Shown here: one piece after another, positions 22,991-37,957 of the stretch
Layout: the number at the start of each line of letters is the position of its first letter
Numbering within the stretch: position 1 is the stretch's first letter
Virus record (IMG/VR): IMGVR_UViG_3300044695_006068
Coordinates: 1 to 38,025 of that record
DNA: 38,025 bases
DNA from: a virus
Direction: 5' to 3' (one strand)
Program-made: the position numbers and the translations under genes
The notes under the pieces: model-generated
The model's database searches: none
What the model was told of the DNA's origin: nothing
Seen by the model: the letters and a program-made list of their open reading frames with translations, nothing else

Positions 22991-23944
22991 TCAAGCCCGG
23001 CGCTTGCCGATCTTGGCCACCGCCTCGGCCAGCGTGTCCGCGTACAGGTGTGCGTAACGCTGCGTGCTGGCAGGGCTCTTGTGGCCGAGCACCTGGCCGA
23101 CGGTGAACAGCGGCACGCCAGAGTTCGCCATCTCGCTGGCCGCGCTGTGGCGCAGGTCATGGAAGCGCACGTCGCCCAGGCCCACCTTGTCGCGGGCGCG
23201 GGTCCAGGCAGCCTGGATGCCGCGCTTGTGGCCGGTCAGCGGCAGAAACTTCAGCAGGTGGCGGATGCGCGGGTGCGGCGGGATGACGCGCGGCTGGCCG
23301 TTCTTGCTGTCGTGCAGCACCAGCAGGCCGTCGACTACCTGCACGGCCCACAGCTCGCCCAGGCGCATGCCGGTGTAGAAGCACACGCGGATGGCGATCT
23401 GCGCCTGCCAGCTGCCGCACGCGCGGCACGCCTGCAGCATGCCCTTGCGCGTGATGTAGGTCTTGCGGGCATTGCGCACCACGGGCAGCAGCATGCGCGC
23501 GGTGGGGTCGGTGTCGGTCAGGCCGTGGCGTTTCCAGGCCCAGCGACACGCCGCCTTGAGCAGCGCCAAGCGGTTGCGCAGGGTGGCCGGGCTGGCGTCG
23601 GACGCGGCGATCACTTCGCGCGCCACATCGGGCAGGTCGATCATGGGCTTGCCCTGCCAAGCCCAGGCGATGGCGCCCAGGTGCTCGGCCGCGCTCTTGT
23701 AGCTCTTGAGGCCGGTCTTGTCGGTCAGGTAGTGCTTGACCGCCTGGTCGATCAGCGGCTCGGCTCGGGCGACGCCAGCCGCAAGCGCGTAGAGCCGCGC
23801 TGTTTCGGCTCGGTCGAACGTGTCAGCCTGGGCTTGACTCCAGCCCTTCGGAAGCAATCGAGTAAGTCGGTGTCGGCGACCTTCAAGATAGCGGTCGAAC
23901 GAGAAACGCCAGCGCTTGTCAGCCTTTGACCAGTAGATCGACAT
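22991..23944 (-). CDS. int: Tyrosine-type integrase
   Basis: A 317-residue site-specific recombinase. The catalytic set is visible: Arg194 (TGMRLGELW), Lys214, His262 and Arg265 (FHDLRHSAASEM), His288 (VLGHKS) and the nucleophile Tyr297 (TQRYAHL). The N-terminal half has a core-binding domain (about 60-145) and a short arm-binding start. It is the last gene of the leftward operon, next to attP, and should insert the phage into the host tRNA-Ser gene. The first 193 bases overlap the excisionase frame, an unusually long overlap. Confidence 0.95.
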   Translation of the reverse strand: MSIYWSKADKRWRFSFDRYLEGRRHRLTRLLPKGWSQAQADTFDRAETARLYALAAGVARAEPLIDQAVKHYLTDKTGLKSYKSAAEHLGAIAWAWQGKPMIDLPDVAREVIAASDASPATLRNRLALLKAACRWAWKRHGLTDTDPTARMLLPVVRNARKTYITRKGMLQACRACGSWQAQIAIRVCFYTGMRLGELWAVQVVDGLLVLHDSKNGQPRVIPPHPRIRHLLKFLPLTGHKRGIQAAWTRARDKVGLGDVRFHDLRHSAASEMANSGVPLFTVGQVLGHKSPASTQRYAHLYADTLAEAVAKIGKRRA

Positions 23945-34039: not shown

Positions 34040-34299
34040 TGGCAGGCCGCACGCAGACACCGGGCCTGGTGCGCCACCGCGCCTTCGAAGCCAAGGTGAA
34101 CCGGCAGTACCTCACCCGCACCGGCCGCCTGGCCCGCCTGGCCAAGATCGAGCCTGATGCGTCGGGCGATGACATCCTGCACTTCGAGTACATCGACCCG
34201 CCGCCTCAGCCCGACGCGCTCGGTCCGACCAAGACCCGCAAGGACGGGTTCCAGATGCACGAGCGCGTGGCCTCGCGCTTGATGTTGCGGGTGGATTGA
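34039..34299 (+). CDS. Small phage protein, unknown
   Basis: Eighty-six residues (MAGRTQTPGLVRHRAFEAKV), basic in its first half with ILHFEYIDPPPQPDALGPTK in the second. Starts 1 base into the previous stop. No family recognised. It precedes the primase-helicase gene by 13 bases and may belong to the replication unit. Confidence 0.5.
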   Translation: MAGRTQTPGLVRHRAFEAKVNRQYLTRTGRLARLAKIEPDASGDDILHFEYIDPPPQPDALGPTKTRKDGFQMHERVASRLMLRVD

Positions 34300-34312
34300 G
34301 GCGAGCCGCGCG

Positions 34313-36739
34313 ATGACACAGGAAGCCTTGATGCAGCCGCTGCTGGACAACCTGCCCGCCGCCATGCGGGCGCTGGACCAGTGGCTGGTCTGGCGCTTCG
34401 AAACCTACCCCGGCGACAAGAAGCCGCGCAAGGTGCCCTACTACTGCAGCGGGCGCAAGCGCCGCGGTGAGCAGGGCAGCGCCGAAGACCGCGCCCAGCT
34501 GGCCGGCTTTGCCCAAGCGCGGGCGCTGGTGGACACCGGGCGCTTCGATGGGCTGGGGTTCGCCTTCCTGCCCGGCGACGGGCTCATCGGCATCGACATC
34601 GACGCCGCCATCGACGCCGACACCGGCGAGGTGGCGCCGCACTGCCTGCGCATCATCGAGCAGTGCGCCAGCTACACCGAGCGCAGCCCCAGCGGCCGGG
34701 GCGTGCACATCATCGTGGCCGGCCACACGCAGACCTTCAAGGACAACGCGATCGGCGTCGAGGTGTTCTGCGGCCGACAGTTCTTCACCTGCACCGGCGA
34801 GCGCTGGGCCGGCACGCCGGCCGAGGTGGGCCCGATCACGCCGCAGACGCTGGCGATGTTGCGCGAGCTGGTCAAGCCAGCGCGCGACCAGGCGCCGCGC
34901 GCCGCTGCACCACGCCCCGCCACGCCCGCCGCCGATGACCTGGGCCGCCGGCTCGAATCCGCGCTGCTGCAGCTGGACAGCGACATGCCGCACGACGACT
35001 GGGTCGAGGTGGGCATGGCGCTCAAGGCCGCGCTGGGCGAAGGCGGCCTCCGGCTGTGGGACTGGTGGAGCAGCAAGGGCAGCAAGTACCCGGGGCACGA
35101 GGTGCTGGCGCGCAAGTGGGCCAGCTTCCGCGGCCAGGGCATCACCGAGGCCACCATCTTCCGCCGCGCCATCGACGCCGGCTGGGCCCCGCCGCGCAGC
35201 CGCGGCCCCCTGCGCGCACCGCCGCCGCCGCAGGACGCGCCCGACCTGCAGGACGACGGTGCAGCCGGCGACGACCAGGCCGACGACGCACCCGACTACC
35301 ACGCCGACCCCGAAGGCGCCGAAGCGGCCGAAGCCCGATCTACCCCTGCGTCCGGCTCCGCGCCGGGTGGCAGGCGCAAGCCCTGCAACAACCTGCCCCC
35401 GGCGCTGGACGCGCTGCTGCTGCGCAACAGCGAAGGCGGGGTGGCCGATTGCCGTGAAAACGTCTTCCTGACGCTGAAGCACCACCCGGAGCTCACCGGC
35501 CTGGTGGCCTTCGACGAGTTTGCCTACCGCGTGCTCAAGACGCGCACCACGCCCTGGGGCAGCGAGCCGGGCGAGTGGGCCACCGACGACGACTACAGCC
35601 TGGGCTACTGGCTCGCCACGCAGATACGCCTGCGCGTGCGGGCTGAGGCCACGCTGGCGGCCGGCGTGGCCATGGCCGCCACGGACAACAAGTTCCACCC
35701 GGTGCGCCAGTACCTGGACAACCTGCCCGCCTGGGATGGCATCGACCGCCTCACGCACTGGCTGCACGAGTGCGTGGGCGCGGCCGACACCACCTACACG
35801 CGCCTGATCGGCCCGTGGTTCGTGATGAACATGGTGCGCCGCATCCGCCAGCCGGGCTGCCAGGCCGACTACATGATCGTGCTCGAGGGCAAGCAGGGCA
35901 AGCGCAAGAGCACCAGTCTGCGCACCCTGGTGGGCCGCGACGACTGGTTTGCCGACACGCCCATCCGCATCGGCGACAAGGACGCGCTGCTCAATCTGGC
36001 GGGGAAGTGGCTGTACGAGATCGCCGAGTTGGACAGCTTCAGCCGCGCCGAAACCACCGCCGTCAAGCAGTACCTCACCAGCCGCATCGACCGCGTGCGC
36101 GAGCCCTTTGCGCGCCGCCCGGCTGACCGCCCGCGCAGCTGCGTCTTCGCCGGCACCACCAACCAGGACGAGTACAGCAAAGACAGCACCGGTGCGCGCC
36201 GCTTCTGGCCCGTGGCCTGCGACGACGAGATCAACCTCGACAAGCTGGCCGCCGACCGCGACCAGATGTTTGCCGAGGCCATCGCCCGCCTGGCCAGCGA
36301 CGACGCCGAAACCCGGCGCTGCTGGCCCACGCGCGAGGAAGAACAGCGCTACCTCGTCCCCGAGCAAGAGCGCCGCGAGATCGGCGATCCGTGGTTTGAG
36401 CGCATCGCATCGTGGGTGGACAGCAGCGCCCGCTTCGGTGAGGCCCACACCGAAGCCTGTGAGCGCGACAGCTTCACCACGCACGAGCTGCTGGTGTACT
36501 GCCTCGGCGTGCCCAGCGACCGCATCGACGGTGCCCGCCAGATGAGCACGCGCGTGGGCATCGCCATGCACAAGCTCGGCTGGACCAAGAAGCGCGATGC
36601 CCATGGCGCCAGGCTCTGGCGCTACGTCCGTCCAACCTCGAAGCCGGGGCAGGGCGCGGACGATCAGAACGCGGTGGGTGGTCCCACCAGCGAGCCGCAG
36701 GCCGGTGGTCCGGCCGAGGAAACGCTCGATGAATTCTGA
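34313..36739 (+). CDS. Primase-polymerase / VirE-type helicase
   Basis: An 808-residue replication protein. Residues about 20-175 form an archaeo-eukaryotic primase-polymerase (GIDIDAAIDADTG near 92, SPSGRGVHIIVAG near 125, VEVFCGRQFFTCTG near 149). About 215-290 (DWVEVGMALKAALGEGGLRL, KYPGHEVLARKWASFRGQGI) is a PriCT-like helical domain. From about 390 a VirE-type superfamily 3 helicase has Walker A EGKQGKRKST near 525, YEIAELDSFS (Walker B) and VFAGTTNQDEYSKDSTGARR (sensor). It should prime and unwind phage DNA at the origin. GAGGCGAG precedes the ATG. A copy of the GTCCAACC repeat lies within its 3' end. Confidence 0.92.
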   Translation: MTQEALMQPLLDNLPAAMRALDQWLVWRFETYPGDKKPRKVPYYCSGRKRRGEQGSAEDRAQLAGFAQARALVDTGRFDGLGFAFLPGDGLIGIDIDAAIDADTGEVAPHCLRIIEQCASYTERSPSGRGVHIIVAGHTQTFKDNAIGVEVFCGRQFFTCTGERWAGTPAEVGPITPQTLAMLRELVKPARDQAPRAAAPRPATPAADDLGRRLESALLQLDSDMPHDDWVEVGMALKAALGEGGLRLWDWWSSKGSKYPGHEVLARKWASFRGQGITEATIFRRAIDAGWAPPRSRGPLRAPPPPQDAPDLQDDGAAGDDQADDAPDYHADPEGAEAAEARSTPASGSAPGGRRKPCNNLPPALDALLLRNSEGGVADCRENVFLTLKHHPELTGLVAFDEFAYRVLKTRTTPWGSEPGEWATDDDYSLGYWLATQIRLRVRAEATLAAGVAMAATDNKFHPVRQYLDNLPAWDGIDRLTHWLHECVGAADTTYTRLIGPWFVMNMVRRIRQPGCQADYMIVLEGKQGKRKSTSLRTLVGRDDWFADTPIRIGDKDALLNLAGKWLYEIAELDSFSRAETTAVKQYLTSRIDRVREPFARRPADRPRSCVFAGTTNQDEYSKDSTGARRFWPVACDDEINLDKLAADRDQMFAEAIARLASDDAETRRCWPTREEEQRYLVPEQERREIGDPWFERIASWVDSSARFGEAHTEACERDSFTTHELLVYCLGVPSDRIDGARQMSTRVGIAMHKLGWTKKRDAHGARLWRYVRPTSKPGQGADDQNAVGGPTSEPQAGGPAEETLDEF

Positions 36740-36955
36740 TCTCGTCCAACCTCCGTCCAACCTCCGTCCAACCTCTGCGCAAGGTTGGACGGGCGGTTTT
36801 TGCCTCGGTGGCAGGGTGCCGTCCAACCTCGTCCAACCTGCCTCACGTGCACATGCGTGTGTGCGTGGGGGCGCGCGGACGCCCGCACGCCCCCGCACGC
36901 CCCCGCAGGGGCGCGCACAGGGGGAAAGGGGTTGGACGAGGTTGGACGGTTGGAC
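36630..36955. repeat. GTCCAACC iteron array, candidate origin
   Basis: Forward copies at 36630, 36744, 36755, 36766, 36821 and 36831; reverse copies GGTTGGAC at 36783, 36930, 36940 and 36948; one more at 37207. Three forward copies stand exactly 11 bases apart, about one helix turn. Most forward copies lie left and most reverse copies right, so the array is roughly symmetrical about 36880. It fills 36740-36986, a stretch without a gene, right after the primase-helicase. Iterons near a replication gene suggest an origin; an operator cluster is the alternative. Confidence 0.65.
36764..36801 (+). terminator. Intrinsic terminator made of iteron copies
   Basis: CCGTCCAACCT (36764-36774) pairs perfectly with AGGTTGGACGG (36782-36792) around the 7-base loop CTGCGCA, and five T follow at 36797-36801. 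It lies 25 bases after the primase-helicase stop and could end that transcript. The stem is built from one forward and one reverse iteron, so protein binding and termination might compete. Confidence 0.65.
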
Positions 36956-37034
36956 GAGAGAGCAAAGAGCACCACAACACAGCACCATGCAACAGCAAGG
37001 CCAAGGCAGCAAGGCAGCAAGCCTGCGATCCACC

Positions 37035-37250
37035 ATGCCGCAGACCGCCGAGCTTGTCGACTGGCTGCGGGCCGAACTGGGCAAGCAGGCAGCCGACCGC
37101 ATCGTGCTGAAGGGCAAGCAGGGCCGGGGCGGCTTCTACGCCGCTGAGATCGGGCCGGATGGCGTGCTGCGCGAGTTCGGCAGCACGGTCAGCGGCCGGC
37201 GGGTGCGGTTGGACGGGCAGGGGGGGTTGGTGTGGGGGGCGGCGCCGTGA
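37035..37250 (+). CDS. Small phage protein, unknown
   Basis: Seventy-one residues from the ATG at 37035 (MPQTAELVDWLRAELGKQAA), or 87 from the ATG at 36987. The C-terminal GRGGFYAAEIGPDGVLREFG is strand-rich. The frame stays open upstream to 36597, but that part crosses the iteron array and is not convincing. It ends with GTGA, overlapping the next gene. Confidence 0.6.
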   Translation: MPQTAELVDWLRAELGKQAADRIVLKGKQGRGGFYAAEIGPDGVLREFGSTVSGRRVRLDGQGGLVWGAAP

Positions 37251-37957
37251 GGATCACCATCGACACCAACATTGCCCAGGTGCGCGAACGCCTGGGCGCG
37301 CTGGCCGGGCAGGCTGACTTTGCGGCCAGCGTGGCGCTCAACGCCACGGCCCGCCACGTGCAGGCCATCGTGCCCGGCCTGCTGCGGGGCGCGCTGGATC
37401 GACCCACCCCCTTCACGGCCGGCGAGCCCACGGGCAGCCGCGCCTCGACCTTCATCGCCCGCGCCGACAAGCGCAAGCTCGAAGCCGGCGTCTTCTTCAA
37501 GACCCGGCAGGCCAGCTACCTGCGCTGGCAGCTGCAGGGCGGCACGCGGCAGCCGGCGCGCAAGGCCCTGCGCCTGCCTGCTGCGGTGGAGCTCGACGCC
37601 TTCGGCAACCTGCCGCGCGGCACTATCACCAAGCTGCTGGCCGTGGCCCGGCGCGAAGGCAAGCTGAGCAAGCGCCAGTCGCGCACCATCCGCGTCAGCC
37701 GCAACGTCGAGATCTTCTACGGCGACCCCACCGAGGCCGGCGTGCCCGGCAGCCCGCCCGGCATCTACAAGCGCATCGCGCGCCCCGATGGGCGCTCGCA
37801 GCTCATCCCGTTGATCGTGTTCCCGCAGCGCTCGGCGCGCTACGAGAAGCGCGTGGACTTCCTGGCCGCCGCGCAGCCCGTCGTCGCCCGCGAGTTGCCG
37901 CGCGAATGGGCGCGGGCCATCGAGCAGGCCATGCGCACCGCGCGCGCCAGGTCATGA
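37247..37957 (+). CDS. Minor tail protein Z-like protein
   Basis: A 236-residue protein from the GTG at 37247 (240 from a GTG at 37232). The start RITIDTNIAQVRERLGALAG, the AASVALNATARHVQAIVPGL stretch and the end LPREWARAIEQAMRTARARS resemble the lambda gpZ/HK97 tail-completion class, which positions DNA at the head-tail junction. In lambda, Z lies among the tail genes; here it precedes cos, so in the circular genome it leads into the terminase. The match is moderate. TMP and U-V order support a role in tail completion. Confidence 0.55.
   Translation: MRITIDTNIAQVRERLGALAGQADFAASVALNATARHVQAIVPGLLRGALDRPTPFTAGEPTGSRASTFIARADKRKLEAGVFFKTRQASYLRWQLQGGTRQPARKALRLPAAVELDAFGNLPRGTITKLLAVARREGKLSKRQSRTIRVSRNVEIFYGDPTEAGVPGSPPGIYKRIARPDGRSQLIPLIVFPQRSARYEKRVDFLAAAQPVVARELPREWARAIEQAMRTARARS

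Follow-up and report, generated by a model that had tools for sequence, protein, structure and literature searches.

The alpha protein of P4 has an origin-binding C-terminal domain that reads the short iterons of ori and crr, and SaPI origins have an AT-rich region between their iteron sets. At lambda O-type and iteron-plasmid origins, the initiator is separate from the helicase and an AT-rich unwinding element is present. Such A+T-rich unwinding elements are commonly carried by origins, according to the section cited here (PMC5043065). In the SaPI Rep family, the C-terminal domain recognizes iterons downstream of its own gene, and the isolated C-terminal domain of SCCmec Cch2 binds specifically to a putative origin that lies downstream of the gene and has direct repeats (both from the cited section of PMC7581432). 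In P4, the initiating helicase and primase are fused (cited section of PMC7145576).

Here we describe a repeat array found in a 38,025-base virus record, the whole of which was analysed and is called the window below. Most probably, a temperate tailed phage starts its DNA replication at this array. The best reading of its kind is an origin of the SaPI-Rep/P4 type in temperate tailed phages, with a Z-DNA-prone tract where an AT-rich unwinding element is usual.

The repeat array and its genomic context

The window carries terminase, portal, capsid, tail, endolysin, spanin and integrase genes, and is therefore taken to be a temperate tailed phage. The first-pass annotation had reported eleven copies of GTCCAACC at 36630-37214. 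Searching the whole window recovered exactly these eleven exact matches and 0 elsewhere (Table 1). The array is real: 100 dinucleotide shuffles gave a mean of 0.95 matches and a largest count of 6, and 0/100 reached 11. The 11-base period described for three of the forward copies (iterons 2 to 4) was likewise found. Forward (F) and reverse (R) copies run F F F R F F to the left of a 91-bp spacer and R R R to its right, and a further single copy stands apart on either side. The earlier picture of forward copies clustering on the left and reverse copies on the right thus holds for the totals (six and five), but a reverse copy, iteron 5, stands within the left cluster. The array had also been called gene-free. 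This is true of nine of the eleven copies, which lie between the primase-helicase gene and a small ORF, but the two outermost copies fall inside these genes. Facing each other across the spacer are the two arms of a perfect 20-bp inverted repeat.

Table 1. Positions of the array, its spacer and the adjoining genes in the window
Feature	Position	Strand	Basis or remark
VapE-type primase-helicase gene P0001, 808 aa, putative initiator	34313..36739	+	PF05272, PriCT_2, phrog_15962
C-terminal winged helix codons (residues 720-772), candidate iteron reader	36470..36628	+	model; covariation
Iteron 1	36630..36637	+	exact match; inside primase-helicase gene
Iteron 2	36744..36751	+	exact match
Iteron 3	36755..36762	+	exact match
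Stem-loop from iterons 4 and 5 with T run behind, terminator-like	36763..36793	+	1 found; shuffles 0.5 +/- 0.9
Iteron 4	36766..36773	+	exact match
Iteron 5	36783..36790	-	exact match; inverted copy within left cluster
Left arm, perfect 20-bp inverted repeat	36819..36838	+	faces right arm across spacer
Iteron 6	36821..36828	+	exact match
Iteron 7	36831..36838	+	exact match; inner left
Central spacer, 91 bp	36839..36929	.	GC 0.78 (survey's bounds) vs locus 0.70; alignment
Alternating purine-pyrimidine tract, 24 nt	36844..36867	.	longest such run in the 38-kb window
Iteron 8	36930..36937	-	exact match; inner right
Right arm, perfect 20-bp inverted repeat	36930..36949	-	faces left arm across spacer
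Iteron 9	36940..36947	-	exact match
Iteron 10	36948..36955	-	exact match
Small ORF P0003, right border of the array	36987..37250	+	no Pfam or PHROG match
Iteron 11	37207..37214	-	exact match; inside small downstream ORF

GC skew, which had been suggested as a check on the origin, shows no turn at 36,880 in the window. Because the skew likely follows gene orientation here, it decides nothing about the origin. Antisense to the primase gene is an open frame of 1001 codons (34112-37117, minus strand), probably a by-product of high GC.

Conservation of the array among relatives

A first protein search recovered an array at the same place in 13/13 loci. The core layout is shared by 11 of these (L015 with one altered copy) and is rearranged in L012 and L013, whose protein is 62% identical. 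When the window is aligned with L003, L006, L008, L009 and L015, 71/72 iteron columns are invariant, as against 72/144 of the other columns.

The wider survey covered 209 loci, each with the helicase half complete and 300 bp or more downstream, grouped into 95 clusters at 85% identity; 13 of 222 loci with a match were left out for an open ORF, an uncovered C-terminus or less than 300 bp downstream. Two large scans supplied the best 80 of 579 and the best 80 of 591 confirmed candidates, and the survey therefore leans to close relatives and Pseudomonas. In 60/95 clusters, the interval from -50 to +450 of the helicase stop contains an 8-mer repeated to a level reached by 0/100 shuffles. This interval outdoes every other 500-bp window of its locus in 60/95 clusters, and the best 8-mer there is counted 5.8 times on average, vs 2.2 times in windows elsewhere in these loci. 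The interval holds no significant array in 35/95 clusters. Some Pseudomonas clusters among these 35 have an array further downstream, behind an inserted gene; in phage vB_Pae_U5 (L031), for example, TGTCCCAC-type copies and alternating runs occupy a stretch some 380-650 bp past the helicase stop. In the remaining clusters of the 35, no array was found further downstream either.

From lineage to lineage the array changes its word but retains its layout. Among the consensus units are AGGTTGGACG, AGGTGGGACG, AGGTTAGACG, AGGTAGGAC, AGGTATGGAA, AGGTTAGGAA, AGGTTGGGAA and AGGTTGTGAC, and the same orientation patterns of the G-rich strand (−−−+−− or −−+−−− to the left of the gap, with +++ to the right) recur with different words. 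Neighboring iterons on the same strand are mostly 8 to 11 bases apart, and short inverted iteron pairs are found in 48/60 arrays. The first-pass annotation had counted absence of the copies from relatives with the same primase as evidence against its reading. Arrays of this word are indeed lacking in relatives such as L057, L049 and L056, but an array of another word takes the same place. Among ten whole records checked, the GTCCAACC cluster is absent from the four with clearly other words (G003, G005, G006 and G007).

Several loci (L060, L061, L082, L068, L070, L078-L080 and L081) share the primase half of P0001 but match its helicase weakly or not at all. At the same place, these primase-half-only loci have arrays built on other words (CGCGTAAC, CCCTGTTA, ATGCGGAA, GTGGACAC), several with an alternating tract; L061, L070 and L080 have a DUF5906 match.

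The primase-helicase and its C-terminal domain

P0001 matches PF05272 at residues 469-688 (E 1.5e-69), PriCT_2 at residues 216-286, and phrog_15962. Its helicase half and C-terminus were modelled at a mean pLDDT of 87.9, and the closest solved structure to this model is PriRep1 with dsDNA (7pds; Foldseek E 5.7e-29), which we take to be the SaPI1 protein. Superposition on 7pds_F gave Z 33.3 and an rmsd of 4.7 over 401 residues, the model range 1-413 including the winged helix. After the AAA+ core, a strand-helix-helix-helix-strand-strand unit is predicted, with block pLDDT mostly 84-92; such a unit is typical of a winged helix, and the model predicts a C-terminal dsDNA-binding domain. The isolated winged helix gave nothing credible in a PDB sequence search with its profile (best E 0.12) and no significant match in a fold search of its model against the PDB (best E 0.24). 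The fold-search rows are winged helices of several families, and the P4 origin-binding domain is absent among the rows shown, although a family missing from these match lists may still be a relative.

P0001 ends in an acidic tail with a final hydrophobic residue (LDEF), and other helicases end in EEPF, DVPI or DDAIPF. The last residue is F, I, L or Y in 67/95 helicase clusters vs 10% of 280 other ORFs, and an acidic plus hydrophobic end is found in 55/95 clusters vs 11% of other ORFs. The tip of SSB is also an acidic tail with a final hydrophobic residue, and by analogy the helicase tail is possibly a docking peptide for host replication proteins. In the codons of the primase C-terminal tail, GGTGGTCC recurs (twice here, at 36677-36711, and at the 3' ends of L045, L047, L048, L051 and L057), which perhaps reflects a DNA-level constraint beyond coding.

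Two binders of the array had been put forward, the ribbon-helix-helix (RHH) protein P0002 (33770-34039) and the primase N-terminus, and neither is borne out by the survey. Relatives of P0002 occur in only 2/95 clusters (tblastn, E 1e-3). A P0001-like N half is not required for a GTTGGAC-type array, nor is it enough: among the 15 such arrays whose upstream sequence is long enough, 8 have it and 7 are without it, and it accompanies 9/42 arrays of other words. In L019, a Prim-Pol domain (PF09250) takes the place of the P0001-like primase half.

The iteron word appears to follow the other end of the protein. Over 60 arrays, the partial rank correlation of iteron similarity with winged-helix identity given AAA+ identity is 0.42 (0/500 permutations), compared with 0.115 for AAA+ identity given winged-helix identity (28/500 permutations). 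Of 23 sliding 50-residue windows along the helicase, the last (residues 713-762) is the best, at 0.40, with the next at 0.26. Leaving out the GGAA-type words, the winged-helix partial correlation is 0.47 (n=42; 0/500). When 29 disjoint nearest pairs are compared, what the winged helix adds to AAA+ falls short of significance (partial 0.26, p 0.09), and L171 and L172 have their word in common despite only 33% winged-helix identity. With GGAA-type words there is mostly a Cys after the recognition helix together with an E-K/R-R wing, and with GGAC-type words mostly a Trp; these associations may largely represent one clade. From these correlations, the C-terminal winged helix of the helicase appears to fit the role of iteron reader better than the RHH protein or the primase N-terminus. 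We infer that it binds the iterons as a 10-bp unit, AGGTTGGACG in the reading of the G-rich strand.

The central spacer and its alternating tract

No AT-rich region separates the iteron sets in the window, the spacer being more GC-rich than the locus (Table 1). Spacer statistics were compiled for 56/60 arrays, leaving out L091 (fewer than five copies), L172 and L240 (short gap) and L161 (no central gap). The median spacer length is 88.5 bp. The longest alternating purine-pyrimidine run in the spacer averages 21.7 nt vs 6.7 nt in random windows of the locus, and beats the random windows in 50/56 spacers at p 0.05 and in 47/56 at 0.01. Because the random windows are mostly coding DNA, shuffles and outer flanks were used as further controls; the run averages 6.8 in base shuffles, 10.7 in dinucleotide shuffles, and 6.7 and 6.4 in the outer flanks. 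Against dinucleotide shuffles, the spacer run is longer in 41/56 spacers at p 0.05 and in 32/56 at 0.01, which leaves 15/56 in which the tract does not rise above the shuffles at p 0.05. The spacer contains the longest alternating run of the entire locus in 46/56 cases (mean locus length 8.5 kb). The close relatives L006, L008 and L009 have a tract of merely 11 nt.

Steps inside the tracts are CG (44%), CA/TG (46%) and TA (10%, with 15% expected), and the tracts are richer in GC than the rest of the spacer (0.676 vs 0.599). The lowest-GC 25-mer lies to the right of the tract centre in 37/50 spacers. Six spacers (L178, L155, L159, L019, L035 and L018) have a run shorter than 9 nt. Their GC content is 10 to 27 points under that of the locus, whereas the other spacers are on average 2 points above it (Mann-Whitney p 9e-6). 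Since the tract-poor spacers are shifted to AT, alternation and AT-richness look like substitutes for each other.

The tract is also found where the array is not detected. The longest run of the locus lies within 800 bp behind the helicase in 51/59 array clusters (5.8 expected; one of the 60 has less than 800 bp downstream) and in 23/35 clusters without a detected array (3.5 expected). It lies within 800 bp behind the gene in 16/25 primase-half-only loci (2.8 expected), and the tract thus outlasts a change of helicase type. The spacers show a modest structure signal, folding better than dinucleotide shuffles with a mean z of -1.33, below -2 in 18/56, and -2.4 in the window. An Rfam search gave three microRNA matches, all below threshold; two fall in the GC-rich spacer, and all three are taken as chance.

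Proposed mechanism and alternative readings

The origin reading is supported by the position, layout and conservation of the array and by the homology of P0001 to SaPI Rep; the binders first proposed for it are not. By this model, the C-terminal winged helices of the helicase would bind the iterons behind their own gene. As has been proposed for SaPI Rep, two helicase rings would form on the facing iteron arms and melt the spacer that separates them. Opening would rely on the Z-prone tract, with AT-richness serving instead in a few lineages. The alternating tract might help strand opening under negative supercoiling, doing the job of the AT-rich element elsewhere; rings on convergent iterons could exploit or drive a B-Z transition, whose junctions would start strand separation. 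The iteron word would evolve along with the winged helix. We propose only tentatively that this amounts to a widespread class of temperate-phage origins that open at a Z-DNA-forming alternating tract instead of an AT-rich element, with a word that evolves with the winged helix, and we are similarly doubtful that the real role of the tract is that of a Z-DNA opening element. The tract could instead be a hairpin or cruciform element, or a stretch of weakly stacked pyrimidine-purine steps, which we rate as somewhat less likely than not. Alternation by itself maximizes weakly stacked steps, and spacer folding is slightly stronger than in dinucleotide shuffles. This signal of structure is modest, however, and GC-rich, TA-poor tracts suit Z-DNA more than easy melting. 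In literature searched mostly outside subscription papers, no report was found of Z-DNA-prone tracts in phage iteron origins or of VapE-phage origins.

Other functions for the array as a whole appear improbable. It is situated between replication and structural genes, and the stem made by iterons 4 and 5, followed by a T run, resembles a terminator, as might be expected of repressor sites or a transcription terminator between an early replication operon and late genes. A simple scan of 36400-37300 shows no promoter-like site, however, and relatives such as L056 and L057 have this iteron pair without the T run behind it. Neither convergent arms nor a spacer tract are expected of a terminator, and the RHH candidate occurs in only 2/95 clusters. 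We therefore consider a regulatory array in place of an origin unlikely, although a terminator may coexist with the origin. It is quite unlikely that the array is an origin read by a host protein or another phage protein, with the helicase recruited. Shared ancestry may account for part of the winged-helix covariation, as the 29 disjoint pairs (p 0.09) allow, but different phages have different words, which go with the helicase C-terminus, unlike the sites of a conserved host protein, and the two other neighboring phage genes tested have relatives in few clusters (P0002 in 2/95 and P0003 in 10/95). A packaging or recombination site is very unlikely. Although cos, pac and att sites can hold repeats and the array adjoins late genes, the repeat word follows the replication helicase, the array stands behind the helicase stop in 60/95 clusters, and the integrase and terminase genes are at 22991-23944 and 608-2686, respectively.

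An origin at this place means that, in a large group of temperate phages and prophages, replication origins can be located by a rule that needs only the sequence. The helicases also make up a natural series in which each winged helix has its own DNA word to be matched with, and a recognition code might be deduced from it. If the tract is indeed the opening element, a sequence prone to left-handed DNA would replace the AT-rich unwinding element at an origin, which would bear on origin opening in GC-rich genomes.

Comparison with known origins

Lambda O-type and iteron-plasmid origins have iteron arrays in common with the phage described here, but their initiator is not itself the helicase and they use an AT-rich unwinding element. 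P4 alpha is a primase-helicase fusion with a C-terminal origin-binding domain and short iterons, as in our reading of P0001; the structure of the P4 domain is not among the rows shown for the isolated P0001 winged helix. SaPI Rep/PriRep1 resembles P0001 in its VapE-like SF3 helicase core and in fold (7pds, Z 33.3). The SaPI spacer is AT-rich, whereas the phage spacer is GC-rich and alternates purines with pyrimidines, and the phage differs also in being tailed and in having its primase and helicase fused. As predicted for P0001, the SaPI protein has a C-terminal DNA-binding domain, and its iterons too lie directly downstream of the helicase gene (PMC7581432). SCCmec Cch2 likewise has a DNA-binding C-terminal domain and a repeat-holding putative origin downstream of its gene (PMC7581432), but has only three 5-nt repeats and belongs to the D5/primase C-terminal family, not VapE. 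The SaPI-Rep/P4-like kind of origin is thus known, and what is new is a tailed-phage spacer without AT-richness and with a recurrent alternating tract.
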